From the NCBI RefSeq assembly GCF_018070325.1, contig NZ_JAGPXY010000020.1:1-64000 (forward strand): DNA of 64,000 nt. The letters are read 5' to 3'. Positions 48,624 to 63,856 of this stretch are shown in pieces (the stretch's first letter is position 1; each line of letters begins with the position of its first letter). Below the pieces are notes generated by a model. The model was not told where the DNA came from. It worked only from the letters and a program-made list of their open reading frames with translations, and searched no databases. Origin of the DNA: Micromonospora sp. H61. GTDB taxonomy: Bacteria; Actinomycetota; Actinomycetes; Mycobacteriales; Micromonosporaceae. A program made the position numbers and the translations under genes.

Positions 48624-49162
48624 TCGTCCGCCTCCTCGTCATCGTCACCGGGCGTCGTCAGACCGTGCTCGTCGAGGAAGCTCCACCACTCGTCGTCGTC
48701 GAAGGCGACCTCCCCGTACCCGGCGCCGAAGACGTAGTAGGCGAGGAACGAGTCGAGGTCCGGCGCGACGTCGAGGAACATCTCACGCATGAACCACTCG
48801 TCGGTGGTCTCCGCCGGGAAGTACCAGACCGCGCCGGTGTCGCGTCGGATCAGCAGCGGCTCGTCGTTCAGTGTGCCGATGACCAGCCATTCGGCGGGTT
48901 CGTCGGCGACACCGGTGAACTCGGGCATCTGCTCGATGTAGTACTGGACGTCGTCGAGGTCCGCGAGCGCGGGCAGGTCGAACGCTCCGGCCAGGATGCC
49001 GTTGGCGGTCGCCAGCAGCTCCCGGACCGGCTGCGGCAGCTCGGCGGGAATCTGGTCGGCCGGGGCACCCTCGTTGATCTGGGCCCACGCCAGCGTCGTC
49101 GGCTGGCCCGCCTCCAGGTCGGTACGCAGCTCCGCGATGAGCTCCCGCAACTCGAGATTCAA
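48620..49162 (-). CDS. SUKH (SMI1/KNR4-like) immunity protein
   Basis: 180 residues: LPQPVRELLATANGILAGAF, YYIEQMPEF, EWLVIGTLNDEPLLIRRDTGAVWYF, and FLAYYVFG give the SUKH fold (alpha-plus-beta, nucleic-acid-toxin immunity). Very acidic C-terminal tail. TTG 49162 overlaps the stop of the nuclease gene (TTGA), so toxin and immunity are made in fixed ratio. Two different SUKH proteins follow one toxin, so one may be a relic against another toxin. Confidence 0.8.
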   Translation of the reverse strand: MNLELRELIAELRTDLEAGQPTTLAWAQINEGAPADQIPAELPQPVRELLATANGILAGAFDLPALADLDDVQYYIEQMPEFTGVADEPAEWLVIGTLNDEPLLIRRDTGAVWYFPAETTDEWFMREMFLDVAPDLDSFLAYYVFGAGYGEVAFDDDEWWSFLDEHGLTTPGDDDEEADD

Positions 49163-49689
49163 TCCACTACCTCTATTCGGATCGGTGTGCCGTCAGGCAG
49201 GTTCATGATCTGACGCCAGATTTGCCCGCCGACATCCCAGTTTGTTCTACCGTCCAGGAGCTTCAGATTACTAACGTCGTCGGCGCCGCCGAGTTGCAGC
49301 TCCCACACATGGTCGGGCTGCTGCTTGCGGAGCCGGGCGGCGAGGGCGTTCGCCATCTTCTTGTCGTGGGGCCAGTACTTGTCGAAGATCTTCTGCCGGA
49401 TGCGCTTCTTGTAGTCGGCCGTGATCGTCTTGTCCCGGCCGACCGGGTTCGCCTGCTTGAACAACTTGCCCTCGTCGCTGAGCTTCTTCAGCGCGTTCAT
49501 CTTGCGGTCGAACTGGCCGCGCGCGTGGAACGGCCTGCGCTGCACCTTGATCGTGACCTCGGGCAGGTCGTTGTTGCGCACCACCGGCTTGGCGGCGGCC
49601 TTCTTCACCGCCGCGCGGACGCCCTTGCCAACCTTCGGCTTGCCCGCGCCGCCGCGCTTCTTCGAGCTTTTCGGCGCCCTGCTAGGCAT
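49159..49689 (-). CDS. HNH-like nuclease toxin (separate C-terminal toxin gene)
   Basis: 176 residues: a basic Lys/Arg-rich N-terminal region (1-60) and a C-terminal domain with QPDHVWELQLGGADDVSNLK, DH at 126-127, ELQ at 130-132, Asn141, and DGTPIRIEVV. This DH-x2-ELQ-N pattern is what HNH/ENDO VII-type polymorphic toxins show. No signal or trafficking domain, so it must be delivered with, or as a partner of, the preceding WXG-like protein. ATG 49689 lies within the last codons of that gene (8-base overlap). Confidence 0.7.
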   Translation of the reverse strand: MPSRAPKSSKKRGGAGKPKVGKGVRAAVKKAAAKPVVRNNDLPEVTIKVQRRPFHARGQFDRKMNALKKLSDEGKLFKQANPVGRDKTITADYKKRIRQKIFDKYWPHDKKMANALAARLRKQQPDHVWELQLGGADDVSNLKLLDGRTNWDVGGQIWRQIMNLPDGTPIRIEVVD

Positions 49690-50176
49690 CGAGGAGCTCC
49701 TGAATCACCTGGTCGATCAGCAGACCGACGATCTCTCGCGTGATCATCTGGAAGATCGGGACCTCGGCCAGCGACGCGCCGAACGTGACGACGGCGGTGG
49801 CGATCGCCTGAGCCACCGCGAAGGCGAGGATCGCCAGCTGCACGATCACTTGGATCTTCAGTGCGAGCACGATCGCGGCGGCGATGATCAGCCCGGTGCC
49901 GATCAGCATCGCGGCCTCGGCGTAGTCCGGCAGTGTTCCGGGACCGGTCTCCGGGTTGGACCACCACTTCTGGAACGCCTGCATCGACTCGCCCCGGTGC
50001 TGCGACCAGATCGCCGCAGCAGCCGAACCGGCCTCCCCGGAGGCGTCGGCGACCGTGCCGGAGAAGTCCAGCCAGGCCTGGCCCATCTCGAAAAGCTTCT
50101 CCTCGTCGGCCTCGGGCCAGCTGTAGCCGATCCAGCCGAGTGCCGTGATCAGTTCACCCGGCAGTTGGAGTCCCAC
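49682..50176 (-). CDS. WXG100-like trafficking protein with membrane segments (half-toxin)
   Basis: 164 residues. The N-terminal LPGELITALGWIGYSWPEADEE, LFEMGQAWLDF motif opens many actinobacterial polymorphic toxins and is a WXG100-like alpha-helical hairpin. A hydrophobic region (about 88-130, AMLIGTGLIIAAAIVLAL) follows. In most genomes this part continues into a long toxin; here the protein ends with QVIQELLDA and the nuclease follows as a separate gene overlapping by eight bases. GTG 50176, two bases after the stop of the previous gene. Confidence 0.75.
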   Translation of the reverse strand: MGLQLPGELITALGWIGYSWPEADEEKLFEMGQAWLDFSGTVADASGEAGSAAAAIWSQHRGESMQAFQKWWSNPETGPGTLPDYAEAAMLIGTGLIIAAAIVLALKIQVIVQLAILAFAVAQAIATAVVTFGASLAEVPIFQMITREIVGLLIDQVIQELLDA

Positions 50177-50180
50177 ACCG

Positions 50181-50504
50181 TCACCCCAGCATTCCCTGGA
50201 TGTCCCGCAGCGCGCCCGCGGCGGCGTCCTCGACCAGCTCGAAGTTGTCGGCCATCTTCGTCAGATCGCTGCCGGCCGAGCCGATCTCCTCGGCGGCAAC
50301 GCCGATGCAGTCCAGAACCCAGGTGGACGCCTCCGTGTACGCGATACCGATCAGCGAGCCGATGTCGTCGGCGCCCCACGGCTCGCCGTACCCCTGCATC
50401 TGCGCCTCGAAGCTCTCCAACTGCCCGATGAAGCGTTCGGCGGCGCCGATGACCTCATCGCCGCCGGAACGCAGCAGCGCGGGCTCGACCTCGAAGCCGT
50501 TCAT
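50181..50504 (-). CDS. WXG100-like (ESX substrate-type) protein
   Basis: 107 residues, two helices around a turn with EPWGADDIGSLI, the typical position of the WxG-like motif in ESX/type VII substrate families. GAGGAGG precedes ATG 50504, which overlaps the stop of the YbaB-like gene (ATGA). Expected to be exported, possibly as a heterodimer with the next protein. No type VII core genes are in the window. Confidence 0.75.
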   Translation of the reverse strand: MNGFEVEPALLRSGGDEVIGAAERFIGQLESFEAQMQGYGEPWGADDIGSLIGIAYTEASTWVLDCIGVAAEEIGSAGSDLTKMADNFELVEDAAAGALRDIQGMLG

Positions 50505-50923
50505 CGGGAACCTCCTCGGGCCATCCGCTCCTGCGCGTCAGTGAGCGCCTGCAGGAACGCACCGAGCCGCGGCACGGCCGTGTCACGAACCTGCTCCAGC
50601 TGCTCGGTGAGCTGCGAGAGGTCGCCGGAGGCCACCGCCGGGCCACCGCCGCGCATCGAGTCGATCGCCGCGTTCACGGCCGCGATCACGTGGTCGCAGA
50701 CCTCGGCCGCGCCGAGCCGCATCATCCGTGGATCCAGCGTCAGCGACTCCAACCGGCCGTCAGCGCCAAACTCGGCGCGGACCTGCCCCTCGGCGGACTC
50801 ACCGACCCGACGTAGGCGCGCGGCCTCCTCGTCCTCCGGCGCGGTGCCGGCGGCGCGCAGCGCGCCGACCGTCGCGTCCAGCATGCGAGCGAACTCCCCG
50901 CTCGCCGGCTCATTCACCGACAT
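50501..50923 (-). CDS. YbaB/EbfC-like protein
   Basis: 140 residues: an N-terminal helix, a beta-hairpin (VRAEFGADGRLESLTLDP) and long C-terminal helix (VCDHVIAAVNAAIDSM), the YbaB/EbfC fold. Such proteins head actinobacterial type VII toxin operons and may be chaperones or DNA-binding. TGGAGGGCGC precedes ATG 50923. First gene of the coupled six-gene toxin operon. Confidence 0.75.
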   Translation of the reverse strand: MSVNEPASGEFARMLDATVGALRAAGTAPEDEEAARLRRVGESAEGQVRAEFGADGRLESLTLDPRMMRLGAAEVCDHVIAAVNAAIDSMRGGGPAVASGDLSQLTEQLEQVRDTAVPRLGAFLQALTDAQERMARGGSR

Positions 50924-51114
50924 GCGCCCTCCATCGATCGCCTCCGAGACAGTGGAAAGCGTAGTCAGATCCGGCAAATCGCGTCGTCCCGGGAGGTGCA
51001 CGTCCTATCGAGGGTTGTCGAATGGCACGAGCCGTCGACGGACCTGGAGAGGCGACGGGTACGCCCTGCGCGCGCTGTGGGAGACGCTGGCCGGCGGCGC
51101 CACCGTTCGTTGCC

Positions 51115-52131
51115 TCAGGCGGTCGCCAGGCGGACCATGAACTGGCAGCCGTCGGGGGTGTTGCGCACCTCGACCCGACCGCCGTGCGCCTCCACCAGGC
51201 CATGCACGATGGCCAGGCCGAGCCCTCCGGACGCCCCGCCGTCGCCGGGGCCGGGCGTGCGGGCCGGTTCACCACGGAAGGCGATGTCGAACAGCCGGGG
51301 AAGGTCGGCCGGGGGGATGCCGCCACAGGTGTCGGCTACCGACAGCCAGGCATGGTCGTCCTCCCGGCCGGCTTCGATGCGTACGGTGCCGTCCTCAGGG
51401 GTGTAGCGGACCGCGTTGAGCAGCAGGTTGGCCACGACCCGGGCCAGCTCCGGTTCGCTCGCGGCGACCGTCGGCCACCCCGACTCGCTGGCGATCAACT
51501 TGATCCGGCGAGCGTCGGCCAACGGGATGGTGCTGGCCAGCGCGTCCGAGACCACCTCTCCGAGCGGCACCGCCGTCAGCGACAACCGCAACGCTCCCGC
51601 GTTGATCCGGGACAGCTCGAACAGGTCGTCGACGAGTCGGGTCATCCGGTCCGTCTCCAGTCGGATGCGTCGGTGGTACTCGTCGACAGTGTCCGGATCA
51701 CGAACCACCCGGTCCTCCAGCGCCTCGGCCATGGCTCTCAGCCCGGCGAGCGGGGTCCGCAGGTCGTGGGAGACCCAGGCGACCAGGTCGCGCCGGCCCT
51801 TCTCCAGTTGCCGTTCCCGCTCCCGGGCCTGGTCGCGCCACACCGCGGCGCGGGCCAGTCGCCGACCGAAGTGCCCGCCGACGGCGAGGCTGACCACCGC
51901 TGCCGCCGCGACGGTGATCAGGACCACCTCAAGGTCGTGCGCGGAGAGGAACATCGCCTCCGCGACCGCCATCACCCCGACGGCGACGGCGACCACGGTG
52001 GTGGTGAGCAGCACGTTGAGGTGCACGGTGATCGAGCTGCGTCGAAGCGCGCGCAGCAGCACCGCGCCGGCGAGCCCGATGCCGAGCGCCGCGCCGAGGG
52101 CGAGCGCGAAGATCAGGAGTACGTCACGCAT
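51115..52131 (-). CDS. Sensor histidine kinase (OmpR partner)
   Basis: 338 residues: N-terminal membrane helices (about 4-28, 38-60, 67-90), HisKA with DLVAWVSHDLRTPLAGL (phospho-His122), HATPase_c with NLLLNAVRYTPEDG, DTCGGIPP and GLGLAIVHGLVEAHGG. Very little sits outside the membrane, so an envelope or membrane signal is likely. ATG 52131 overlaps the end of the response regulator gene by eight bases; same operon. Confidence 0.9.
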   Translation of the reverse strand: MRDVLLIFALALGAALGIGLAGAVLLRALRRSSITVHLNVLLTTTVVAVAVGVMAVAEAMFLSAHDLEVVLITVAAAAVVSLAVGGHFGRRLARAAVWRDQARERERQLEKGRRDLVAWVSHDLRTPLAGLRAMAEALEDRVVRDPDTVDEYHRRIRLETDRMTRLVDDLFELSRINAGALRLSLTAVPLGEVVSDALASTIPLADARRIKLIASESGWPTVAASEPELARVVANLLLNAVRYTPEDGTVRIEAGREDDHAWLSVADTCGGIPPADLPRLFDIAFRGEPARTPGPGDGGASGGLGLAIVHGLVEAHGGRVEVRNTPDGCQFMVRLATA

Positions 52132-52819
52132 GGGCCGGCTCGTAGCGGTAGCCGACGCCCCAGACGGTCACGATCCGCTGCGGATCGGCCGGGTTTGCCT
52201 CGATCTTCTCCCGCAGCCGGCGTACGTGCACTGTCACTGTCGAGTGGTCCCCGAAGTTCCAGCCCCAGACCTGTTCAAGGAGTTCGGCCCGGCCGAACAC
52301 CCGGGACGGATGCCGCATGAGGTGGACGAGCAGGTCGAATTCGCGCAGTGTCAGGGCCAGATCCGCACCGGCGAGGCGGGCGGTTCGGGAGGCCGTGTGC
52401 ACCACCAGGTTGCCGTCGGTGAGTGCCTCCGGCCGCTCGGGTGGCGTCGCACCGCCGGCGCGACGGAGCACCGAACGGACCCGCAGCACCAGTTCCCGGG
52501 GTGAGAAGGGCTTGGTCAGGTAGTCGTCCGCGCCGAGTTGCAGCCCGAGGATCCGGTCGGCCTCGTCACCGCGGGCGGTGAGCATGACGATCGGTACGCC
52601 GTCCGGGCGTACCCGCAGTGCCCGGCACACCTCCAGCCCGTTGAGCAGCGGCAGCATCAGGTCGAGCACGACCAGGTGTGGTGCCTCCCGCTCCACGGCA
52701 GCCAGTGCCGCCGCACCGTCCGCCGCGAGGCTGACCTGGAAGCCGTCGTTCTCGAGGTAACGACGGATGACGTCGCTCACTGTCTGATCGTCGTCGACCA
52801 CCAGCACCCGCTGTGTCAC
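52124..52819 (-). CDS. OmpR/PhoB-type response regulator
   Basis: 231 residues: receiver (Asp9-Asp11, phospho-Asp53 in VVLDLMLP, Thr in MLTARGDE, Lys in YLTKPFSP) and a winged-helix DNA-binding domain (LTLREFDLLVHLMRHPSRVF, WNFGDHSTVTVHVRRLREKI, IVTVWGVGYRYE). GTG 52819 with GGGGAAGG close upstream. The upstream region carries direct repeats (52911-52927) also found before two other genes in this block; such repeats are usual OmpR-family sites, so autoregulation and control of the block is inferred. Confidence 0.92.
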   Translation of the reverse strand: MTQRVLVVDDDQTVSDVIRRYLENDGFQVSLAADGAAALAAVEREAPHLVVLDLMLPLLNGLEVCRALRVRPDGVPIVMLTARGDEADRILGLQLGADDYLTKPFSPRELVLRVRSVLRRAGGATPPERPEALTDGNLVVHTASRTARLAGADLALTLREFDLLVHLMRHPSRVFGRAELLEQVWGWNFGDHSTVTVHVRRLREKIEANPADPQRIVTVWGVGYRYEPAHA

Positions 52820-52910
52820 GGACCTTCCCCGTTCCGCCCCGTCAACGTCTCCCCCAGATGTCCATCGGCCCAGCGTAGCCACGTACCAGACTCCGCCCGC
52901 ACCGGCAAAC

Positions 52911-52927
52911 CTTGCGAGGTTCTTACG
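52911..52927 (-). promoter_or_regulatory. Direct-repeat site 1 (candidate response regulator box)
   Basis: On the minus strand CGTAAG-N5-CGCAAG with an 11-base period. It lies between the response regulator (start 52819) and the divergent epimerase (start 52979), whose -10 TACGGT (52966-52971) is seven bases before its ATG. Confidence 0.6.
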
Positions 52928-52978
52928 GCTGCGCGCGAAAACCCGAGCGGGCGTACGCGAGGTCATACGGTGACCGGA

Positions 52979-54058
52979 ATGCGGATCCTTGTCACCGGTG
53001 CGGCCGGGTTCATCGGCTCACACGTCGCCGACCTGCTCACCGACGACGGGCACGAGGTGGTGGCAGTGGACGCGCTCCTGCCCGAGGCGCACGCTGCGAC
53101 GGCGCCGCCGTGGACCGAGCGGCACGACGTGGTGGTCGGTGACGTACGCGACGGCGAGCTGCTGACCCGGCTACTGGCCGGGGTCGACGCGGTCTGCCAT
53201 CAGGCGGCCATGGTCGGCCATGGCATCGACCCGGCCGACGCCCCCCGGTACGCCGCGCACAACGACCTCGGCACCGCCACCCTCCTCGCGGCGATGCACG
53301 CCACCGGCGTACGCCGGTTGGTGCTGGCCAGCTCGATGGTGGTCTACGGCGAGGGCCGCTACCACTGCCCCACCCACGGGATCGTCCGGCCGGCCAACCG
53401 CCGGGTCGTCGACCTGGCCGAGGGCCAGTACGAGCCGACCTGCCCTCGCTGCGACCAGGCGCTCTCCCCCGGTCTCGTGCCCGAGGACGCGCCGCTGGAG
53501 CCGCACAGCACGTACGCCGCCACCAAGCTGGCTCAGGAACACCTCGCCGGTGCCTGGGCCCGGCAGACCGGCGGATCGGTCTGGGCCCTGCGCTACCACA
53601 ACGTCTACGGTCCGCGAATGCCCCGTGACACTCCGTATTCGGGGGTCGCGTCGATCTTCCGGTCGGCCCTGGCCGCCGGACGACCGCCCCGGGTGCTCGA
53701 GGACGGCCGGCAACGGCGCGACTTCGTGCACGTGACCGACGTGGCCACTGCCAACCTGCTGGCCCTCACGACACCGGCACCGGATCCCCTGACCCCGATC
53801 AACGTCTGCTCGGGCGAACCACACACCGTCGGCGAGTTGGCCCACGAGCTGGCGGCGGCGATGGGCGGGCCACCGCCGGTCACGGTCGGGGGCGGACGGG
53901 CGGCGGACGTACGGCACGTCGTGGCGGATCCGGCGCGCGCCGCCCGGGTGCTCGGTTTCACCGCCCGAGTCGGCTTCGCCGCTGGCATCGCCGACTTCAC
54001 CACGGCGGTGATGCGGGACCCGGCATCGGTCACGACACCGTCCACAGTAGGTGGTTGA
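52979..54058 (+). CDS. NAD-dependent epimerase/dehydratase with zinc-ribbon insert
   Basis: 359 residues, extended SDR: ILVTGAAGFIGSHVADLL (NAD), YGEG, STYAATKLAQEHL (catalytic YxxxK), NVYGPRMP. Between residues ~125 and 160 there is an insert HCPTHGIV...TCPRCDQ giving a C-x(n)-CPxC zinc-ribbon-like set that ordinary epimerases lack. Acts on a nucleotide sugar in the cytoplasm. Leaderless: TACGGT seven bases before ATG 52979; GTG 52970 is an alternative. Tail-to-tail overlap of 29 bases with the next gene. Confidence 0.85.
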   Translation: MRILVTGAAGFIGSHVADLLTDDGHEVVAVDALLPEAHAATAPPWTERHDVVVGDVRDGELLTRLLAGVDAVCHQAAMVGHGIDPADAPRYAAHNDLGTATLLAAMHATGVRRLVLASSMVVYGEGRYHCPTHGIVRPANRRVVDLAEGQYEPTCPRCDQALSPGLVPEDAPLEPHSTYAATKLAQEHLAGAWARQTGGSVWALRYHNVYGPRMPRDTPYSGVASIFRSALAAGRPPRVLEDGRQRRDFVHVTDVATANLLALTTPAPDPLTPINVCSGEPHTVGELAHELAAAMGGPPPVTVGGGRAADVRHVVADPARAARVLGFTARVGFAAGIADFTTAVMRDPASVTTPSTVGG

Positions 54059-55394
54059 CGGCGAGAGCCGTGGCGGCCTGGGCGGCCAACCACCACCGTC
54101 GGTGAGAGTGGGGCAGGTGCGCGGTGGCGACCAGCAGCCAGACGGCGAACGGTAGCCAGATCCGCTCGACCTCGGCCTTGCTGAGCCCGGACAGGTCCGC
54201 CGCGAGCACCGCCGCCGTCGCCGCGATGGGCAGCCACACAGTGGGCCCGGCGCTGGCGATCCGCTGCCGGAGGGCCGTCGCGAGCGGCGGGTGCGGTGCT
54301 CGGATCGACACGGCGGCCACCGCCCGCCGCAGCGCCGGCCCGACCACCGGGCCGGCCGAGAGCAGCAGGGCGGCGAGATTCGCCCAGACCCAGTAACCGT
54401 ACGGACGTTCCGCCGCCCAGCCCTGGTAGTAACGACGTGCCACCAGGTGGTAGCCGTCCAGCCACCAGAAGCCGGCGAGGGTGAAGACGGCGACGACGGC
54501 CGCGACCGCCGTCGCCGCGACCAGGAGCACGCCGAGGCGGTCCCGCGCCCGGAGCAACACCACTGTCAACGCGAGCAACCCGACCAGGACGAACCCGTAC
54601 GACAGGTAGAGCGCGAAGCCGAGTAGCAAGCCGCCCAGTACAGCCCCTGGTCGGCCACCCACCGCCAGCAACGCCAGCCCGGCCGCGACCACCGCTGCGA
54701 AGATCCCGTCCGCGGACGCGCCCACCCAGACCGCTCCCGGGAGGAGCACCAGGAACGGCCACACCGCTCTGGCCGCGTCCTCGGCGCCGAGTGCCCGCAA
54801 CGTCACCGGAACCGACACCGACACCGTGGCGCCGAGCAGCACGCAGGCGAGCCCGGCGGCGGTCCCGCCGCCCAGGCCGATCCGCTCCAGCCAGACGAAG
54901 AACAGCAACGCTCCCGGTGGGTGAGCGGCAGCGTGGGTGGACCACGAGTCGGGCTGGAAGTCGAGAATCCGGTCGGCGAAGCCGGACAGCATGATGCCGA
55001 CGTCAGTCACCCGGGGCACCTCGTGCAGGTACTCGGCCTGCACTGTGAGCCGCTCGGTCAACCCCGCGGACCAGCCGTCCACCAGGGCCAGTGACAGCGT
55101 CCAGAGCAGCGAGGCGAGGTAGCCGACCGCCAGCAGTCGCGGCCACGGCGTGTCGGTTCCCCAGCGCACGCCCCGCCAGACGAACAGCGCGGCGACGAGA
55201 AGCGCGGCGGGGGTGCCGGGCCCCAGGTGGGGCTGCCAACTCGCGTAGAGCGGCGCCGCGTCGGCGTGCAGCCGTACGCCCTGGTGGTTGAGCAGGGCGC
55301 CGACGGCGACGGCGACGGCGAGCAGAGCCACCTCGGCGCCGAGGACGATCAGGTCGGCGGACCGGGTTCGTCCCGGCCGGGTCATCATGGTCAT
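54030..55394 (-). CDS. Polytopic membrane protein (GT-C glycosyltransferase-like)
   Basis: 454 residues with about ten membrane helices. WSTHAAAHPPGALLFFVWLERIG and FWWLDGYHLVARRYYQGWA recall polyprenyl-phosphate-dependent GT-C transferases, with the acidic first loop (TDVGIMLSGFADRILDF) in place of the usual DxD. Likely transfers a sugar on the outer membrane face. It overlaps the 3' end of the epimerase and is divergent from the GT2 operon. The family assignment is tentative. Confidence 0.7.
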   Translation of the reverse strand: MTMMTRPGRTRSADLIVLGAEVALLAVAVAVGALLNHQGVRLHADAAPLYASWQPHLGPGTPAALLVAALFVWRGVRWGTDTPWPRLLAVGYLASLLWTLSLALVDGWSAGLTERLTVQAEYLHEVPRVTDVGIMLSGFADRILDFQPDSWSTHAAAHPPGALLFFVWLERIGLGGGTAAGLACVLLGATVSVSVPVTLRALGAEDAARAVWPFLVLLPGAVWVGASADGIFAAVVAAGLALLAVGGRPGAVLGGLLLGFALYLSYGFVLVGLLALTVVLLRARDRLGVLLVAATAVAAVVAVFTLAGFWWLDGYHLVARRYYQGWAAERPYGYWVWANLAALLLSAGPVVGPALRRAVAAVSIRAPHPPLATALRQRIASAGPTVWLPIAATAAVLAADLSGLSKAEVERIWLPFAVWLLVATAHLPHSHRRWWLAAQAATALAVNHLLWTVS

Positions 55395-55477
55395 GGTGAC
55401 GGCCGACGATACGACCTCCCACCAGGCATTCGGCGGCCAGACGGTGAGACGTCAGCGAGTCGTAAGATCCGTTGCCG

Positions 55478-55494
55478 TGTAAGCGATTCGTAAG
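55478..55494 (+). promoter_or_regulatory. Direct-repeat site 2 (candidate response regulator box)
   Basis: TGTAAG-N5-CGTAAG, 11-base period, with a further CGTAAG at 55461. TAGCGT (55529-55534), a -10, follows after 34 bases and lies seven bases before ATG 55542: the GT2 gene is leaderless. Confidence 0.65.
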
Positions 55495-55541
55495 GAGAAA
55501 CCGCGGTCCGGGCGGCCGGTGGCGGGCCTAGCGTCGCCGGT

Positions 55542-56219
55542 ATGCACACAACGATCGACGTGGTGCTGCCGTGTCTGGACGAGGCGGCCGCACTGCCTGC
55601 CGTACTGAGCGGGCTACCGCCCGGCTACCGCGCCATCGTGGTCGACAACGGCTCCACCGACGGTTCGCCGGGCGTCGCGGCCGAGCACGGAGCCCGGATC
55701 GTCCACGAGCCGCGACGCGGGTACGGCGCTGCCGTGCACGCCGGCCTGCTGGCGGCGGAGGCGGATCTGGTCTGCGTGCTCGACGCGGACGGCTCGTTCG
55801 ACCCGGCCGAGTTGCCCAGGCTCTCCTCGGCGGTGCTCGACGGGCGAGCCGATCTCGCCGTGGGGCGGCGTCGGCCGGTCTCGGCGGATGCCTGGCCGTG
55901 GCATGCCCGCGCCGGGAACGCGCTGGTCGCGGCCCTGCTGCGGCGTCGTGGCGTGCCGGTGTACGACATCAGCCCGATCCGGGTGGCCCGCAGGGCGGCG
56001 CTGCTGGGCCTCGGGGTCGACGACCGGGCGTTCGGCTACCCCCTGGAGTTGCTGCTGCGCGCCGCCGGAGCGGGCTGGCGGATCCTCGAACTGGACGTCG
56101 CGTACGCGCCCCGGGCCGCCGGCACCCGCTCGAAGGTCTCCGGGTCGGTCCGGGGCACGCTGCGGGCGACCCGGGACTTCGCCGGAGTGCTGCGCGCCGA
56201 CGCCGGTGGTGGCCGGTGA
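55542..56219 (+). CDS. Glycosyltransferase family 2
   Basis: 225 residues, GT-A fold: DVVLPCLDEAAALPAVL, IVVDNGSTDGSPGVA, VCVLDADGSFDPAEL (DxD-like) and a C-terminal segment RAFGYPLELLLRAAGAGWRI. Cytoplasmic, UDP/GDP-sugar donor expected, possibly forming a polyprenyl-phosphate sugar for the neighbouring membrane protein. First gene of an operon coupled by GTGA overlaps. Leaderless start at 55542. Confidence 0.88.
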   Translation: MHTTIDVVLPCLDEAAALPAVLSGLPPGYRAIVVDNGSTDGSPGVAAEHGARIVHEPRRGYGAAVHAGLLAAEADLVCVLDADGSFDPAELPRLSSAVLDGRADLAVGRRRPVSADAWPWHARAGNALVAALLRRRGVPVYDISPIRVARRAALLGLGVDDRAFGYPLELLLRAAGAGWRILELDVAYAPRAAGTRSKVSGSVRGTLRATRDFAGVLRADAGGGR

Positions 56220-56896
56220 ACGTCCTGCTCCTGGTCGCGAAGGCGCCGGTCCCCGGGCAGGCGAAGACGCGCCTCTGCCCGCCAGCCGATCCCACCCAGG
56301 CGGCCCGGATCGCGGCGGCGTCGCTGCTGGACACCCTCGCGGCGGTGCGCGCCACCGCCTCGACCATTCCCGTGCTGGCCCACACCGGTCGGTTCGCCGA
56401 TGCCGAGTTCGGCGCGGAGTTGACCGCAGCGTTGGCGGGCTGGCACCTGCTTCCGCAGCGCGGCGGCACGTTCGCCGACCGCCTCGCGAACGCCCACGCC
56501 GACACCGCTGCGGCATTTCCCGGCCGACCGGTGCTGCAGATCGGCATGGACACCCCGCAGATCGGGCCGGCAGTGCTCACCGCCGCGCTGGACCGGCTCG
56601 CCGAACACGAGGCGGTGTTCGGGCCGGCGCTGGACGGTGGCTGGTGGGCACTCGGGTTACGCGATCCGAGGTACGCGAGCGCGTTACGCGACGTACCCAT
56701 GTCGACCGACGACACCGGGCGCCGCACCCTCGCCGCGCTGCGCGGGCACGGCGTACAGCCGGCGATCCTGCCCGTGCTGCGCGATGTCGACGACTGGTCG
56801 ACGGCGCTGGCGGTCGCGGCCGGCCTACCCGGCACCCGGTTCGCGGACGCCGTCGCGTCGGTGGGCGGCCATCTGCTGAGCGGACACCCCCGGTGA
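56216..56896 (+). CDS. DUF2064 (TIGR04282-like) nucleotidyl/glycosyltransferase-fold protein
   Basis: 226 residues: NVLLLVAKAPVPGQAKTRL opening, IGMDTPQIGPAVLTAAL and FGPALDGGWWALGLRDP motifs of DUF2064, which share the CofC/GT-A fold. Members occur next to GT2 genes in sugar-transfer clusters; TIGR04282 is linked to arsenosugar formation in some bacteria. GTG 56216 overlaps the GT2 stop (GTGA). Confidence 0.85.
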   Translation: MNVLLLVAKAPVPGQAKTRLCPPADPTQAARIAAASLLDTLAAVRATASTIPVLAHTGRFADAEFGAELTAALAGWHLLPQRGGTFADRLANAHADTAAAFPGRPVLQIGMDTPQIGPAVLTAALDRLAEHEAVFGPALDGGWWALGLRDPRYASALRDVPMSTDDTGRRTLAALRGHGVQPAILPVLRDVDDWSTALAVAAGLPGTRFADAVASVGGHLLSGHPR

Positions 56897-57606
56897 ATCC
56901 GACGATCAGTCTCGACGGTTTCGACGTGGTGCTGGGCAGACTCGGCGGTTGGTCCGCCGACCAGGACGCCCATGGCACGCCGGTCGGCCCGAGGCCGGCG
57001 ACCCAACCCGAGCATTGGCTGGTGCACACCGACGGGCGACGTGACCTGTTGCCGGTACGGCGCTGGCACGGCCCGCCCGAACCGGCAATCGAGTCCGTCG
57101 CCGCACGCTGCACCGGGCCCACGATCGATCTCGGCTGCGGCCCCGGCCGGCTGACCAGGGCACTCGCCCAGCGCGGCCTCGTCGCACTGGGTGTGGACAT
57201 CTCCGCCGAGGCGGTACGTCTGACCCAGGGCCGAGGTGTGGTGGCCCTGCGACGCGACGTCTTCGAACCGCTTCCCGGCGAGGGGAGGTGGGCGCACGCC
57301 CTGCTCATCGACGGCAACATCGGCATCGGCGGCGACCCGGTCCGCCTGCTGCGCCGGTGCGGCACCCTGGTCGCGGCCGACGGAACGCTGGTGGTCGAGG
57401 TGGAACCCCCGGGGGCCGGGCTGTGGCAGGGGCAGGCGTACGTCCTGTCCGGATCGTCCGGCGATCGGGAACTGCGCGGGCCGGCGTTTCGCTGGGCGCG
57501 GGTCGGGGCGGAGGCGGTGGCCCGTGCCGCCGCCGCTGCCGGCCTGCGCGTCGTCGACCGTTTCCGGTTCGGTCCACGCTGGTTCGTCGAGTTGGCACGC
57601 TCATGA
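56893..57606 (+). CDS. Class I SAM-dependent methyltransferase
   Basis: 237 residues with motif I TIDLGCGPGRLTRALAQRG, VALGVDISAEAVRL (motif II), and HALLIDGNIGIGGDPVRLLRR. Acceptor unknown; it sits between the DUF2064 protein and a membrane molybdenum oxidoreductase, so the product of the sugar step may be methylated. GTG 56893 overlaps the upstream stop (GTGA), and its own stop overlaps the next ATG. Confidence 0.85.
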   Translation: MNPTISLDGFDVVLGRLGGWSADQDAHGTPVGPRPATQPEHWLVHTDGRRDLLPVRRWHGPPEPAIESVAARCTGPTIDLGCGPGRLTRALAQRGLVALGVDISAEAVRLTQGRGVVALRRDVFEPLPGEGRWAHALLIDGNIGIGGDPVRLLRRCGTLVAADGTLVVEVEPPGAGLWQGQAYVLSGSSGDRELRGPAFRWARVGAEAVARAAAAAGLRVVDRFRFGPRWFVELARS

Positions 57607-58769
57607 TCCGCCGGCCACGCGTCCCCGCCCCCGAGGACTTCACCGGGCCCTCGCACTCACCGCTGGTCACCGCCCGGCTCGGCCTCTGGCTCGGGGTGGC
57701 GTTCGGGCTGTGTTTCGGCACCGGGTTGCTCAGCCACTACATCCAGCACCCGCCGGGCTGGTTCACCTGGCCGACCCGACCGGTCAACCTGTACCGGGTC
57801 ACCCAGGGCGTTCACGTGCTCTCCGGTGTCGCGGCGATCCCGTTGCTGCTGGCCAAACTGTGGAGCGTCTACCCCCGGCTGTTCGTCCGTCCGCCCCTCC
57901 GTCAGCCGATCCGGTTGTCCGCCCACACCCTCGAACGGATCTCCGTCCTGGTGCTGGTCTGCGGCGCGTTCTTCGAACTGGTCACGGGCCTGTTCAACGT
58001 CGCCCAGTCGTACCCGTGGGGGTTCTTCTTCCCGACGGCGCACTACGCGGTCGCCTGGCTGGTGGTCGGGGCGATGCTGCTGCACGTCGCGGTGAAGCTC
58101 CCGGTGGCCCGCGCGGCGCTGAGCACGCCACTGCGGCGCAGCGGAGCGCTACCGGCCGCGACACCAGGGCCCGACGATCGGGACTCGTCCGAGCGACGCG
58201 CGTTCCTGCGTACCTCGGTGGGCGTCGCCGGCGTCGCCGTGCTGGCCACCGCCGGGGTCACAGTGCCGTGGCTACGTCGGGTGTCACCGCTGGCGTGGCG
58301 TTCCGCGTCCGGGCCGCAGGGCGTACCGATCAACCGTACGGCGGCTGCCGCGCGCATCGTCGTTCCCCCGGACTGGCGACTGGAGATCGTCTGGCCGGGC
58401 GGGCGAGACAGCCTGTCCCTGGCCGACCTGGCGGCCCTGCCGCAACGGACGGCGGAACTGCCGATCGCCTGCGTCGAGGGCTGGAGCGCCTCGGCCCACT
58501 GGACCGGCGTGCCCGTCGTTCAGTTGCTCCGCCGGGCCGGCGCACCGGCCGGCCGACCGGTTCGGGTCACCTCGCTGGAGACCGACGGCCTGTACGCGGC
58601 CAGCACGCTCCCTGCGGCCCATGCCCGCGACCCGCTGACCCTGCTCGCGCTGCGAATCAATGGCGAGCAACTCTCGCCCGACCACGGTTACCCGTGTCGA
58701 CTCATCGCGCCGAGTCGGCCCGGCGTCCTGCAGACCAAGTGGGTGGCCCGGCTGGAGGTGTTGCGGTGA
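57603..58769 (+). CDS. Membrane molybdopterin-dependent oxidoreductase
   Basis: 388 residues: four N-terminal membrane helices (about 23-205) with His pairs at helix ends (SHYIQHPP, GVHVLSG, AHYAVAWLV, LLLHVAVKL), like cytochrome b561, then a Tat-like RRAFLRTSVGVAGVAVLA segment and a sulfite-oxidase-type Mo domain (about 270-388) with the Mo-ligand Cys in PIACVEGWSAS and GYPCRLIAPS. A self-contained membrane redox enzyme, Mo site outside, electrons to or from quinone through the haem part. ATGA overlap with the previous gene. Confidence 0.85.
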   Translation: MIRRPRVPAPEDFTGPSHSPLVTARLGLWLGVAFGLCFGTGLLSHYIQHPPGWFTWPTRPVNLYRVTQGVHVLSGVAAIPLLLAKLWSVYPRLFVRPPLRQPIRLSAHTLERISVLVLVCGAFFELVTGLFNVAQSYPWGFFFPTAHYAVAWLVVGAMLLHVAVKLPVARAALSTPLRRSGALPAATPGPDDRDSSERRAFLRTSVGVAGVAVLATAGVTVPWLRRVSPLAWRSASGPQGVPINRTAAAARIVVPPDWRLEIVWPGGRDSLSLADLAALPQRTAELPIACVEGWSASAHWTGVPVVQLLRRAGAPAGRPVRVTSLETDGLYAASTLPAAHARDPLTLLALRINGEQLSPDHGYPCRLIAPSRPGVLQTKWVARLEVLR

Positions 58770-59191
58770 GAACCGTCCGGCTGCTCCTGTTCGTGGTCGG
58801 TGCCGCGGCCACCGCGTACGGCGGTTGGTTGCTGCTTCCCCAGTTCGGCACCGCCCTGCCATGGCTGATCGGCGGCCCGGTGCTGCACGACGTCCTGGTG
58901 GCACCGCTGGTCGGACTGGCCGGGTTGGCGCTGGGTCGACTGGTGACGAATCGGTTGCGCCGGGCCTGGATCGCCGCGGGTCTGCTGGCCAGCGCCACAT
59001 TGCTGCTGATCGCGGTGCCCCTGCTGTGGCGACCACCCTCGGCGCCTCCGAACCCGGGCCTACCGGACCGCGACTACCCGCTGGGGCTCGCTGTCGGGCT
59101 GGCTGTCGTGTGGGCCGTGATCGTGGTCGTCCTGGTCGTCGCCACCACCGTCGACCGACGCGTCGCGCACCGACGGGCAGACCGTCGCTGA
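58766..59191 (+). CDS. Small polytopic membrane protein
   Basis: 141 residues with four hydrophobic segments (about 5-22, 42-60, 68-88, 105-127). GTG 58766 overlaps the stop of the molybdenum oxidoreductase (GTGA), so it may be an accessory membrane subunit. No recognised family. Confidence 0.75.
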   Translation: MRTVRLLLFVVGAAATAYGGWLLLPQFGTALPWLIGGPVLHDVLVAPLVGLAGLALGRLVTNRLRRAWIAAGLLASATLLLIAVPLLWRPPSAPPNPGLPDRDYPLGLAVGLAVVWAVIVVVLVVATTVDRRVAHRRADRR

Positions 59192-59235
59192 GTCGACCCC
59201 CACCCGTTTTCACTGTTCGCCCAGGAGGGGCACAC

Positions 59236-60075
59236 ATGTCAGCAGGAGACACCAGCACGACCGATCGCCCGCCGGTCGCCGTGATCGGCGGATCGGGGTT
59301 CTACGAGTTCCTCGACGACGTCGCAGAGGTCACCGTCGACACACCGTACGGACCGCCGAGCGACGCGCTGTCCGTCGGGAGTGTCGCCGGGCGGCCGGTG
59401 GTGTTCCTGCCCCGCCACGGACGCCGGCACACCCTCCCCCCACACCGCATCAACTACCGGGCCAACCTGTGGGCGCTGCGCGCACTCGGCGTCCGCCAGG
59501 TGCTCGCACCGGGCGCCGTGGGCGGCCTGCGACCGGATCTGGGCCCGGGGACGCTCGTCGTACCGGACCAACTGGTCGACCGGACCAGCGGCCGGGAGCA
59601 GACCTACTACGACGGGCAGCCCCGCGCGGACGGGAAGCCCTCCCAGGTCGTTCACGTGCCCTTCGCCGACCCCTACTGTCCGGTCGGACGGGCCACTGTC
59701 CTCGACGCCGCCCGATCCGCCGGTTGGCAGCCGGTCGACGGCGGGACGATGGTCGTCATCGAAGGGCCCCGATTCTCCACCCGCGCCGAATCGCGCTGGT
59801 ACGGCCGGGAGGGCTGGTCGGTCGTCGGCATGACCGGCCATCCGGAAGCGGTGTTGGCCCGCGAACTGGCACTGTGTTACACAGCGCTGTCAGTGGTGAC
59901 CGACCTCGACTCGGGCGTCGAGGTTGGCCAGGGCGTGACCCAGCAGGAGGTGTTCACTGTCTTCGCCCGGAACATCGATCGCCTGCGCCTCCTGCTCGGT
60001 GACGCGGTGAAGACGTTGCCGGAGGACCAGGGAGCCTGCCCGTGCGGACTGGCCCTGGCAGATACGGAGCGGTGA
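59236..60075 (+). CDS. mtnP: S-methyl-5'-thioadenosine phosphorylase
   Basis: 279 residues of the PNP/MTAP family: VAVIGGSGFYEFLD, RHGRRHTLPPHRINYRANL, VDRTSGREQTYYDG, GTMVVIEGPRFSTRAES, GMTGHPEAVLAREL. It splits methylthioadenosine into adenine and methylthioribose-1-phosphate in methionine salvage, or acts on methylthioinosine in some actinobacteria. AGGAGGGG precedes ATG 59236, 44 bases after the operon, so it may be read through or separate. Confidence 0.9.
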   Translation: MSAGDTSTTDRPPVAVIGGSGFYEFLDDVAEVTVDTPYGPPSDALSVGSVAGRPVVFLPRHGRRHTLPPHRINYRANLWALRALGVRQVLAPGAVGGLRPDLGPGTLVVPDQLVDRTSGREQTYYDGQPRADGKPSQVVHVPFADPYCPVGRATVLDAARSAGWQPVDGGTMVVIEGPRFSTRAESRWYGREGWSVVGMTGHPEAVLARELALCYTALSVVTDLDSGVEVGQGVTQQEVFTVFARNIDRLRLLLGDAVKTLPEDQGACPCGLALADTER

Positions 60076-60079
60076 GCGT

Positions 60080-60096
60080 CGTAAGAGTTCCGAAAG
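60080..60096 (+). promoter_or_regulatory. Direct-repeat site 3 (candidate response regulator box)
   Basis: CGTAAG-N5-CGAAAG, 11-base period. After 33 bases comes TACGCT (60130-60135), a -10 six bases before GTG 60142. The spacing matches site 2. Confidence 0.65.
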
Positions 60097-60141
60097 GGTT
60101 CGCGAACAGTTCGACGGCGGCTGCGGCCGTACGCTGCGGGG

Positions 60142-60726
60142 GTGAGAAAACGGATGTTCCGGTCGCCGGTGGTCCGAGCCGGTCTCGCAGTCGCTGTCGT
60201 CGTGGCGATGCTGGGCCTCTACTGGTTCCAGCCGTGGAAGCTGTTCACCGACACCTACGTCGACGAGGCGATTCCCCGCGTAGCGACGACATCGGCCGCC
60301 CCAGTCCCGGCGTCCGCGACCCCGGAGTCCTCGACGCCGGCCCCCGCGACCTCGGCGGCCACCCCAGCGGCGAACGAGATCCTGACCACCGGCGAGTTCG
60401 TCACCCATGAGCACCGGACGACCGGCAGTGCCGAGATCCACCGGCTCGCCGACGGGCGCCACCAGCTCATCATCCGAGACCTGAACACGTCGAACGGTCC
60501 GGACCTTCGGGTGTGGCTGACCGACCAACCGGTCATCCGGGGCACGGCCGGCTGGCGGGTGTTCGACGACGGCGAATGGGTCGAGCTCGCCAAGCTCAAG
60601 GGCAACAAGGGCAACCAGGTGTACGAGCTGCCGGCGTCGGTGGACCCGGCCGACTTCCGCAGCGTCTCCATCTGGTGCAAGCGGTTCGCGGTCTCCTTCG
60701 GCGCGGCAGATCTCACGAGCGCCTGA
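60142..60726 (+). CDS. Membrane-anchored DM13 domain protein
   Basis: 194 residues: one N-terminal membrane segment (about 12-30), a Ser/Thr/Pro/Ala linker (45-78) and a DM13 domain (about 80-190; TTGEFVTHEHRTTGSAEIHRL, DLRVWLTD, SVSIWCKRFAVSFG with the conserved Cys). DM13 is predicted to carry a redox Cys, related to DOMON. Faces the outside. Leaderless GTG at 60142. Upstream repeat matches the box of the GT2 operon, so it is probably co-regulated with the molybdenum enzyme. Confidence 0.85.
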   Translation: MRKRMFRSPVVRAGLAVAVVVAMLGLYWFQPWKLFTDTYVDEAIPRVATTSAAPVPASATPESSTPAPATSAATPAANEILTTGEFVTHEHRTTGSAEIHRLADGRHQLIIRDLNTSNGPDLRVWLTDQPVIRGTAGWRVFDDGEWVELAKLKGNKGNQVYELPASVDPADFRSVSIWCKRFAVSFGAADLTSA

Positions 60727-60762: not shown

Positions 60763-62450
<1,688 letters not shown>

Positions 62451-62518
62451 GCCCGGCGAGGTTCCCGGGACGGGGACCGGCCCAACGGATGTTCAACCAC
62501 CCACAAGGAGGATCGGCC

Positions 62519-63856
62519 GTGCCAATTCGCAAACTCTCCGCCCCCTGGCTGGGGGCAGCCATGGCGGTGATGGTCCTGATCGCCGTAGGAATGTACGTCC
62601 TCACGACAGTCTCACCGGCGGCAGCGGCCACCACCGCCGGCTGCGGCAAGGCGCCCGGACTGAACAGCGGCACCCACACCATCCAGAGCAGCGGAAAGAG
62701 CCGCAGCTTCATCCTTCGGCTGCCGGACAACTACAACAACACCTACGCCCACCGGTTGGCCTTCGGGTTCCACTGGTTGGGCGGCACCGCCAGCCAGGTC
62801 GCGGGCGGCGGCTCCGACGGGGCCGCGTGGGCCTACTACGGCATGCTCTCCCAGTCGAACAACACCACCATCTTCGTCGCCCCGCAGGGCCTCAACAACG
62901 GCTGGGGCAACTCCAACGGTGAGGACGTCACCTTCACCGACGACATGATCCGCATGATCGACAACGCTCTCTGCGTCGACACCACACAACGCTTCTCGGT
63001 CGGGTTCAGCTACGGCGGCGCGATGAGCTACTCGTTGGCGTGTTCCCGGCCGACGGTGTTCCGGGCGGTCGCGGCGATCGCGGCCCCGGGGGCGATCAGC
63101 GGATGCAGCGGCGGCACCCAGCCAGTGGCGTACCTGGGGATTCACGGCATCAACGACAACATCCCCAGCGGACGGTCGCTGCGCGACAGGTTCGTCCGCA
63201 ACAACGGATGCGCCGCACAGAGCCCGCCCGAGCCGAGGGCTGGCAGCCTGACCCACATCACCACCGCGTACTCCTGCCAGCCCGGATACCCGGTGCTCTG
63301 GGCCGCGTTCGACGGCGGCCACCAGCAGGGCCCGGTGGACGGGTGCGCCGGCTGTGAGAGCGGCGCGCGGAGCTGGGTCAAGCAGGAAGTGTGGCGGTTC
63401 TTCACCCAGTTCGGGTCGGACGTGCCGCCCACCACTCCCCCGCCGACCACCCCGCCGCCCGGCCAGCAGAACGTGCTGATCGCGGGGAGCCAGTCCGGCC
63501 GGTGCATCGACATCCCCAACTCCAGTACCGCCAACGGCGCCCGCCCGCAGCTGTGGGACTGTCACGGTGGCACCAACCAGCGCTGGACCCACACCGCCAA
63601 CCGCACCCTGACCGTCTACGGCAACAAGTGCCTCGACGCCAGCGGCGCGGGCACCAGCAACGGCACCGCGGTCCTCATCTGGGACTGCAACGGCCAAGCC
63701 AACCAACAGTGGAACCTGAACTCCAACGGCACCATCACCAGCGCCCAATCGGGGCTGTGCCTCGACGCCGTCGCATCCGGCACGGCCAATGGGACGCAAC
63801 TTCACCTCTGGGCCTGCCACGGCGGCGCCAACCAGCAGTGGGCCAGGCGCGCCTAG
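62519..63856 (+). CDS. CE1-type secreted esterase with CBM13 (tandem paralogue)
   Basis: 445 residues, same architecture as the previous protein: signal peptide (1-38), hydrolase domain with FILRLPDNYNN, LAFGFHWLGG, RFSVGFSYGGAMSYSLA, AFDGGHQQG, a PPTTPPP linker and CBM13 (GRCIDI, NKCLDASGAG, GLCLDAVASG). The hydrolase halves are closely alike, so this is a tandem duplication with later divergence. GTG 62519 with AAGGAGGATC upstream; 68 bases after the first copy, likely one operon. Confidence 0.88.
   Translation: MPIRKLSAPWLGAAMAVMVLIAVGMYVLTTVSPAAAATTAGCGKAPGLNSGTHTIQSSGKSRSFILRLPDNYNNTYAHRLAFGFHWLGGTASQVAGGGSDGAAWAYYGMLSQSNNTTIFVAPQGLNNGWGNSNGEDVTFTDDMIRMIDNALCVDTTQRFSVGFSYGGAMSYSLACSRPTVFRAVAAIAAPGAISGCSGGTQPVAYLGIHGINDNIPSGRSLRDRFVRNNGCAAQSPPEPRAGSLTHITTAYSCQPGYPVLWAAFDGGHQQGPVDGCAGCESGARSWVKQEVWRFFTQFGSDVPPTTPPPTTPPPGQQNVLIAGSQSGRCIDIPNSSTANGARPQLWDCHGGTNQRWTHTANRTLTVYGNKCLDASGAGTSNGTAVLIWDCNGQANQQWNLNSNGTITSAQSGLCLDAVASGTANGTQLHLWACHGGANQQWARRA

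Follow-up and report, generated by a model that had tools for sequence, protein, structure and literature searches.

A conserved 11-bp-period direct repeat as the probable binding site of an OmpR-family regulator in Micromonospora sp. H61

Within the window, a stretch of 64,000 nucleotides from Micromonospora sp. H61, a two-component system is followed by genes for glycosyltransferases and redox proteins, and the same short direct repeat recurs in several of their control regions. The question is whether this repeat is an operator of the neighbouring regulator and whether the genes behind it form a regulon. The candidate operator, YGTAAG-N5-CGNAAG with an 11-base period, has three exact matches in the window, at 52911-52927 (minus strand), 55478-55494 (plus strand) and 60080-60096 (plus strand), precisely where an initial sequence-only reading had placed them. 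We propose, with a probability of about 0.85, that the MtrA-like OmpR-family regulator of this system binds the repeat and activates its own operon, a GT2 operon and a DM13 gene. The repeat itself is very probably the binding site of this regulator, because most relatives that carry the regulator retain it, whereas in relatives without the regulator it is broken.

In the whole genome (7,165,426 bases; 7.17 Mb) the exact repeat was found three times, all inside 7.2 kb of the block, and the same pattern read backwards as a control was found twice. The genome-wide frequency check proposed with the sequence-only reading thus speaks for a non-random repeat, with 3 of 3 exact matches in the block. 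When one mismatch is allowed, the window contains 4 matches compared with 0.59 expected from shuffles; the fourth lies at 55450-55466, so that the earlier observation that the window showed no further pair of this kind holds for exact matches only. Weak matches are not in excess genome-wide (37 with up to one mismatch compared with 88 for the reversed control). For further targets in the same genome, the 27 one-mismatch loci examined out of 34, including the one at 55450-55466 (L233), showed no TA...T hexamer at 22-34 bp, nor did 6 looser matches outside the block show one at the right distance when inspected by eye. Covering open frames are uninformative as a measure here, since long stop-free frames occur nearly everywhere at this GC content, including at four likely true sites.

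The two-component system consists of a sensor histidine kinase of 338 aa (51115..52131, minus strand) with HisKA and HATPase_c domains, in which a Pfam scan found no HAMP and no sensor domain, and of an overlapping response regulator gene (52124..52819, minus strand; 231 aa). The regulator combines a receiver (Response_reg, 3.4e-32) with a winged-helix C-terminal domain (Trans_reg_C, 1.8e-27), the architecture of the OmpR/PhoB family. By PDB matches it is nearest to RegX3 and MtrA; its best NCBIfam model is MtrA (NF040689), at 233.3 bits under the cut-off of 300. Upstream of it lies site A, CGTAAGAACCTCGCAAG (52911..52927, minus strand), which is direct with respect to the regulator and inverted with respect to the divergent epimerase. 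Site A is a putative mark of autoregulation: it stands in direct orientation 33 bp before the regulator’s own -10 element TACGCT (52872..52877, minus strand), and site and -10 both have a mean column identity of 0.99 over 19 genomes. The sequence-only reading had placed this repeat between regulator and epimerase and related its spacing to the epimerase, and had missed the regulator’s promoter, to which it belongs above all; the inverted spacing to the epimerase stands nevertheless. The epimerase -10, TACGGT (52966..52971, plus strand), lies 38 bp from inverted site A, as read before, and 7 nt before the ATG of the NAD-dependent epimerase/dehydratase (52979..54058, plus strand; Pfam Epimerase 1.7e-49, scanned from 52970), which is apparently leaderless from this start. 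Of 20 genomes examined, 18 have this gap at 38 and one has it at 39; the remaining genome, G005, has another arrangement with no epimerase beside site A.

Site B, the exact repeat TGTAAGCGATTCGTAAG (55478..55494, plus strand), would serve the GT2 operon. It is followed after 34 bp by the -10 element TAGCGT (55529..55534, plus strand; invariant in 18 genomes), 7 nt before the ATG. The overlapping operon encodes a GT2 resembling dolichyl-phosphate-hexose transferases (55542..56219; Glycos_transf_2 1.8e-20, best NCBIfam rows under their cut-offs), a DUF2064 protein (56216..56896; PF09837 3.6e-28; TIGR04282 118.2 bits, under the cut-off of 134; scanned from 56237), a SAM methyltransferase of the Pfam Methyltransf families (56893..57606), a membrane-fused molybdopterin oxidoreductase of the sulfite-oxidase superfamily (57603..58769; Oxidored_molyb 2.8e-25 at residues 254-387; PDB matches to sulfite oxidases, best 1.2e-7) and, as its last gene, a small membrane protein whose start overlaps the preceding stop (58766..59191), all on the plus strand. 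Upstream of site B lies the weaker fourth pair, site B’, CGTCAGCGAGTCGTAAG (55450..55466, plus strand; one mismatch; 0.92 mean column identity, 18 genomes), which is inverted with respect to a gene divergent from GT2. This gene (54030..55394, minus strand) encodes a multi-helix membrane protein for which a structure model tentatively suggests a GT-C-like glycosyltransferase fold. The model is of modest confidence (pLDDT 67.5, pTM 0.76), and its first 12 Foldseek rows, which we take to be GT-C enzymes, are weak matches, none reaching E <= 0.001. The protein has no Pfam match, and DUF6057 appears weakly in 4 of 28 orthologues. Its -10 element TATCGT (55406..55411, minus strand; 0.95 mean column identity, 18 genomes) lies 11 nt before the ATG and 38 bp from inverted site B’, a gap that, among the 18 genomes with the pair (19 examined), measures 38 in 17 and 39 in the other. 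The epimerase, through inverted site A, and the GT-C-like gene, through inverted site B’, are probable further targets, the conserved spacing being the sole evidence for the use of inverted sites.

After an S-methyl-5’-thioadenosine phosphorylase gene (59236..60075, plus strand; NF005876 422.5 bits, cut-off 306), which belongs to the block and has no site of its own, follows site C, the exact repeat CGTAAGAGTTCCGAAAG (60080..60096, plus strand). It would serve a DM13-domain protein (60142..60726, plus strand; PF10517 2.4e-30) whose membrane anchor was read from the sequence. The DM13 -10, TACGCT (60130..60135, plus strand), lies 33 bp after site C and 6 nt before the GTG, with 0.98 mean column identity over 24 genomes (G053 and G106 excluded). 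The gaps between repeat and -10 and the distances of 7 and 6 bases to the start codon had been given identically for GT2 and DM13 in the sequence-only reading. Its further proposal of one local regulon is strongly supported as to the regulon and fails for strict locality, since in several relatives DM13 and its site are found on another contig or far from the two-component system. DM13 keeps its site when thus separated, for example in G128, G046, G087, G055, G101 and G044.

Conservation at orthologous loci, on which the proposal depended, was found throughout the genus, at the GT2 and DM13 loci as well as upstream of the regulator. Among 125 regulator orthologues, 117 have an upstream repeat that matches at no fewer than 9 of its 11 positions and 8 lack it, and the reversed control never matched at more than 8 positions. 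From these 117 repeats the gap to the -10 is 22-23 bp in 48, 32-34 bp in 66 and 21 bp in 1, with none found by the rule in 2; 114 of the 117 thus show one of two spacings about one helical turn apart. Mean column identity is 0.94-0.99 in the repeats and 0.98-1.0 in the -10 elements compared with 0.80-0.82 in the spacers between them, and the matrix of the 117 sites gives the half-site CGTAAG, with G at position 6 in 91%. The recognition helix STVTVH[VI]RRLR is nearly invariant (124 of 125 sequences within the genus, and all 26 that were readable from other families), with a one-residue difference in Pseudarthrobacter and Mycolicibacterium. Outside the genus a clear site was recognized in 15 of 27 orthologues, with a pattern that had itself been derived from these loci. 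In other families GT2-DUF2064 adjoins the regulator and kinase genes at 12 of 27 loci; it does so in Mycolicibacterium as well, and lies about 8 kb from them in the same block in Pseudarthrobacter; these named relatives come from at least 80 loci of a contig search, mostly of 37-57% identity, ten of which were compared. In one clade a thioredoxin-like lipoprotein is a further, unlinked putative target. The regulator is present in 125 of 151 sampled genus genomes (126 with G014) and, at E <= 1e-70, in 84 of 197 genomes of a class-wide sample, absence being defined by an E cut so that a broken gene such as that of G014 escapes the search.

The shared site thus occurs in several promoters, the regulator’s own included, and for GT2 and DM13 it is lost together with the regulator. 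Of 64 genomes with the regulator, 59 preserve both half-sites of GT2 and the other 5 lack an intact site at 32-34 bp; of 7 genomes without the regulator, none preserves both (Fisher 6e-7). The DM13 site reaches a score of 9 with the regulator-derived matrix for 45 of 63 DM13 genes from genomes with the regulator (18 of 63 score lower) versus 0 of 6 from genomes without it; under the strict spacing rule the counts are 30 of 63 and 0 of 6 (p 0.03). On the GT2 tree, absence of the regulator requires 6 changes, at least 5 of them forced by well-supported branches; GT2s from genomes without the regulator are separate from the second copies, and three of them are sister to GT2s that bear the site. 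Contrary to this pattern, a distal pair upstream of GT2 can still be made out in G108 and G132, and in part in G148, all of which lack the regulator, and unlinked second copies of the GT2 block in 9 regulator-carrying genomes, examined after the first tests, have an intact site in 0 of 9. A site can therefore be missing despite the regulator, which weakens the co-loss argument; with these copies included the counts become 59 of 73 versus 0 of 7 (p 4e-5).

We propose that the neighbouring kinase phosphorylates the regulator, which would then bind as a head-to-tail dimer to the repeat, with a half-site of about CGTAAG, and activate the adjoining promoters: its own operon through site A, the GT2-DUF2064-methyltransferase-molybdoenzyme operon through site B and DM13 through site C. 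Since the two distances between a direct site and its -10, 22-23 and 32-34 bp, differ by about one helical turn, the dimer would meet RNA polymerase on the same face in both cases.

The probability that the repeats arose by chance, or are conserved for reasons other than regulation, is negligible. Genus-wide there are at least 150 exact matches; among the 150 listed, 63 were not assigned to regulator, GT2 or DM13 promoters, and these include a recurrent CGTAAGTTGACCGAAAG, which in L033 lies within an open frame 2486 or more bases long. However, at least 87 of the 150 listed fall in three short windows, up to 150 bp upstream of orthologues of the regulator, GT2 or DM13, each of these 87 in the orientation of its gene, and the fixed spacing to the -10 and the broken sites where the regulator is absent likewise argue against chance. 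It is also unlikely that binding of the regulator at these sites serves mainly to repress the genes. Regulators bound upstream can also repress, but the sites here lie at or above the -35 area, with 22-34 bp between their ends and the -10. In the available part of one study, MtrA of C. glutamicum activates when bound upstream of -35 and represses when bound near -10 (PMC3353115), and in that of another, the MtrA autoactivation peak of S. venezuelae has its centre at -50 relative to the start site and the S. coelicolor mtrAB transcript lacks a leader (PMC5487470).

The repeat might instead be read by a different regulator of the OmpR type whose half-site is similar, MtrA in particular, its location in the block then being coincidental. 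This is quite improbable, although MtrA is the best NCBIfam model of the regulator and some genomes without the regulator retain the distal pairs. All 25 genomes lacking the regulator keep one match (E 8e-65 to 1e-60; 47-50% identity where listed), taken as MtrA, and despite this presumed MtrA the GT2 sites (7) and DM13 sites (6) examined in such genomes are not intact. MtrA moreover has many targets, which fits poorly with three exact repeats in the genome. In favour of MtrA, its C. glutamicum site, as given in the excerpt of PMC3353115, is an 8-bp direct repeat with a 3-bp linker, (A/G)TAACAATttn(A/G)TAACAAT, and so also has an 11-bp period. The block’s own regulator would share with the MtrAB systems of Corynebacterium and Streptomyces, as far as the consulted sections of PMC3353115 and PMC5487470 describe them, the OmpR family, the repeat period, a G/ATAAC-type half-site, an activating site upstream of -35 and, as in S. 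coelicolor, leaderless transcription. It differs in its half-site, CGTAAG and not of the RTAACAAT type, in its few targets and in its helix, where STVTVHVRRLR aligns with RLVNVHVQRLR of the MtrA chain. An MtrA-like gene would usually be present in addition to the regulator gene, judging from a second, weaker match.

With RegX3/SenX3 the system shares 2oqr as the closest solved structure by sequence. RegX3 answers phosphate and SenX3 has a PAS domain, whereas none was found in the kinase here. In E. coli, the two-component system YedVW/HprSR controls MsrPQ, in which an enzyme of the sulfite-oxidase family is paired with a membrane haem protein, and so resembles the present one, although its gene content is otherwise different and nothing in the block points to hypochlorite sensing. 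Rv0535-Rv0541c of M. tuberculosis presumably contains phosphorylase, epimerase, GT2, DUF2064 and membrane genes in like order, and to our knowledge has no adjacent two-component system. Streptomyces CutRS is a two-component system tied to the extracytoplasmic state, according to the portion available of PMC12802291; the CutR motif was rejected as a candidate, its site TAWATAAA given there differing from the repeat. The sco5282/5283 system was set apart by the HAMP domain its partial description assigns to the kinase, which the kinase here lacks, and for Actinosynnema CrsR the accessible part of the source gives no defined motif.

In one open-licence library, judged partly by title and abstract, no paper on this two-component system or on a CGTAAG site was found; the regulon would be new, though of a known kind. 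The repeat provides a binding-site candidate and a target list for a system that is common in the genus. It also links a conserved cluster of unknown envelope function, present in Pseudarthrobacter and Mycolicibacterium too, to one regulator, so that the function of the cluster becomes directly testable. Where the regulator is absent, and at unlinked second copies of the GT2 block, the broken sites form a natural experiment on genes leaving a regulon. From the gene content we infer a role in an envelope glycan or lipid-linked sugar pathway together with extracytoplasmic redox proteins, and perhaps the system answers oxidative damage of the envelope. We tentatively speculate, as a broader possibility that we would not favour over its opposite, that this two-component system is ancient among actinobacteria and separate from MtrAB, and that it governs a conserved envelope pathway and an extracytoplasmic electron-transfer and thiol-redox set through bidirectional sites at two helical-phase spacings. 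If so, envelope glycan modification would be coupled to oxidative damage. The envelope pathway would then comprise GT2, the GT-C-like protein, DUF2064, the epimerase and the methyltransferase, a combination unstudied in the open-licence literature searched, and the redox set would consist of the membrane-fused sulfite-oxidase-like enzyme, DM13 and, in one clade, the thioredoxin-like lipoprotein.

The regulon candidate studied here lies in a 7.17 Mb genome (70% GC), in which an OmpR-family regulator (52124-52819) and a kinase (51115-52131) occupy 51115-52819 on the minus strand. The block further comprises an operon with overlapping starts and stops, in the order GT2 (55542-56219), DUF2064, methyltransferase, molybdopterin oxidoreductase and small membrane protein, as well as an epimerase (52979-54058), a divergent membrane protein (54030-55394, minus strand), an MTA phosphorylase and a DM13 protein (60142-60726). 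A pattern search for YGTAAG-N5-CGNAAG gave three matches in the whole genome, identical to the three of the window; the reversed-pattern control gave two. Read in the direction of the respective gene, site A (52911-52927, minus strand) lies 33 bp before the TACGCT of the regulator, site B (55478-55494) 34 bp before the TAGCGT of GT2 and site C (60080-60096) 33 bp before the TACGCT of DM13. The regulator is not leaderless, its start codon being 52 nt past its -10.

The sequence-only reading had assigned site A, inverted, to the epimerase. Although the standard layout on the minus strand belongs to the regulator gene, the inverted reading is not wrong, because a TACGGT is present 38 bp away on the plus strand and is followed by an ATG 7 nt later. 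This distance is 38 bp in 18 of the 20 close genomes read and 39 bp in one, while G005 lacks the epimerase at this place. The remark that no other such pair was noticed in the window is not quite right: a pair with one mismatch, B' (55450-55466), lies inverted at 38 bp from the TATCGT of the divergent membrane-protein gene. Here the distance is 38 bp in 17/19 and 39 bp in 1/19 close genomes read, and in G071 the divergent arrangement is lost.

Across 151 genomes of the genus, an orthologue of the regulator (E 1.5e-90 or better) was found in 125. Another 25 genomes gave a single hit only (E 8e-65 to 1e-60; 47-50% identity where listed), which is taken to be MtrA; G014 gave no hit in the search, and its regulator gene is broken over two frames. 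The proposal that the repeat marks one regulon of this two-component system is supported by the comparison of orthologous loci, in which the repeat (present at ≥ 9 of 11 specified positions) is kept upstream of 117/125 regulator orthologues; the reversed consensus never exceeded 8/11 in the same 125 regions. Among these 117, the gap to a -10-like hexamer is 32-34 bp in 66 (a spurious hexamer precedes it in one), 22-23 bp in 48 (likewise in six) and 21 bp in one, the two main spacing modes being about one DNA turn apart. Two have no -10 by the rule used, with TACTCT (G125) and TAGCTT (G012) nearby. In close genomes, per-column identity is 94-99% in the repeats and 98-100% in the -10s, compared with 80-82% in the spacers between them; for other flanks the values are 59% upstream of the DM13 site and 83-85% on the side of the regulator. 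Where the repeat is missing, DM13 is divergent beside the regulator in five genomes (G097, G059, G021, G062, G019) and upstream on the same strand in G003; in G075 and G131 no DM13 is placed beside or upstream of the regulator to account for the absence. The regulator-DM13 intergenic region of G059, the only one of the five scored on the DM13 side, carries a DM13-directed site at 22 bp. The divergent regulator and DM13 of G001 (L330) share one intergenic region with two opposed sites, one per gene.

In a class-wide sample, 84/197 genomes encode an orthologue at E ≤ 1e-70. A clear site (≥ 11/13 positions of a pattern drawn from the loci outside the genus themselves) was present in the divergent orientation in 15 of the 27 loci read outside the genus and in the other orientation in none; G164, among the 27, is displaced by a contig end. 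GT2-DUF2064 is the divergent neighbour in 12/27 loci. Five of these 12 have a TA...T hexamer at 22-23 or 33-34 bp (L262, L265, L278, L279, L282), the site being weak in L262 and L265 (9/13 positions), and seven have no hexamer at standard distance within the stretch read. The recognition helix STVTVH[VI]RRLR is found in 124/125 genus sequences and in 26/26 readable others. In Pseudarthrobacter albicanus, a stretch of about 9 kb encodes regulator, kinase, epimerase, phosphorylase, molybdoenzyme, methyltransferase, DUF2064 and GT2. The genes for regulator and kinase of Mycolicibacterium palauense are grouped with the GT-C-like gene, methyltransferase, DUF2064 and GT2. In these two, one residue of the helix is different, and the site is weaker or hard to make out.

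Genomes with and without the regulator offer a natural comparison. Upstream regions were read for 71 GT2 and 69 DM13 matches, a subset of those listed, covering all seven regulator-less genomes with GT2 and six of the seven with DM13 (the fragment G095 was excluded). With a score matrix built from 117 regulator sites and a cut-off of ≥ 9 (99% of block-shuffled upstream regions score ≤ 6.1), GT2 sites were found in 57/64 genomes with the regulator vs 1/7 without, and DM13 sites in 45/63 (G106 counted twice) vs 0/6. The strict rule, both half-sites intact and 32-34 bp before the -10, gave 59/64 vs 0/7 for GT2 (p 6e-7) and 30/63 vs 0/6 for DM13 (p 0.03), both p-values ignoring kinship. On the GT2 tree, where support is below 80 on 34 of 68 inner branches, regulator absence amounts to six changes, at least five of them forced by well-supported branches.

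Several results count against the proposed regulon. A second, unlinked block of GT-C-like gene, GT2, DUF2064 and methyltransferase (L468-L476) is present in nine of the genomes that carry the regulator. None of these nine second GT2 copies has an intact site; on the GT2 tree they fall into two distinct clades. A copy can thus drop out of the regulon in a genome that retains the regulator, and the broken sites of regulator-less genomes are no proof by themselves. When the second copies are counted in, the GT2 contrast becomes 59/73 vs 0/7 (p 4e-5). The regulator-less GT2 stand apart from the second copies on the tree; site-bearing sisters from regulator-carrying genomes are G116 for G110, G025 and G125 for G132 and, less firmly placed, G046 for G108. 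A distal pair upstream of GT2 is still readable in regulator-less G108 and G132 and partially in G148. Such a distal pair, of the CGTCAT/C-N5-GGTAAG type, is kept at the regulator-less loci L115, L316 and L313 (partially in L313), where the proximal pair is broken. Exceptions also occur with the regulator present: the proximal GT2 site of G005 is not intact, the diverged GT2 clade of G120, G115, G008 and G006 has pairs at other positions, and the upstream regions of the linked DM13 of G053 and G106 are without a site.

Among the genus matches listed, 150 exact matches were taken, and at least 87 of them, a lower bound given the partial entry of GT2 and DM13 orthologues, lie ≤ 150 bp upstream of an orthologue (regulator 53, DM13 19, GT2 15), all oriented with their gene. 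The other 63 were not assigned to these promoters, and in 30 of the 34 read among them a TA...T hexamer at 22-34 bp is absent. The other four (L444-L446, L460), from one clade, show the full layout near position 1500 of the loci, with TAGCAT at 22-23 bp and ATG 6 nt on, before an unlinked gene for a thioredoxin-like lipoprotein, a putative clade-specific extra target. In nine genomes (G128, G046, G087, G055, G101, G044, G119, G038, G105) DM13 is separated from the regulator, by at least about 490 kb or by lying on a different contig, and nevertheless keeps the site, 33-34 bp from the -10; sharing of the site is thus not a mere effect of adjacency.

The regulator resembles both RegX3 and MtrA in structure-database sequence matches, but it falls under the cut-off of the MtrA model and its recognition helix is another than that of MtrA. 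The C. glutamicum MtrA site is an 11-bp direct repeat, like the candidate site of this block, with a TAAC core, and activation proceeds from upstream of the -35 (PMC3353115). By analogy, we infer that the regulator binds the site and activates the promoters: it would sit as a tandem dimer on the CGTAAG half-sites and may then recruit RNA polymerase. The -10 is visible in the promoters of the block, and no clear -35 was seen by eye. Judged by its gene content, the block may serve envelope glycosylation and extracytoplasmic redox functions. The fold model of the divergent membrane protein is GT-C transferase-like at modest confidence, the molybdoenzyme is a member of the sulfite-oxidase superfamily by domain and structure-database matches, and DM13 and the thioredoxin-like lipoprotein are redox-type domains. 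An autoregulated OmpR-type regulon is of a well-known kind; this member, with its candidate site and target set, appears to be new, and no paper on the regulator or the site was found in searches of open-licence papers.

At 61032-63856, two neighbouring, similar secreted proteins have the look of a tandem duplication, by eye each with an esterase-like part and a lectin-like C-terminal repeat region. On the minus strand at 49159-51001, a protein whose C-terminus may be nuclease-like comes after small helical proteins of secretion type; by eye, the region resembles a type VII-linked polymorphic toxin locus that may be split over two frames.
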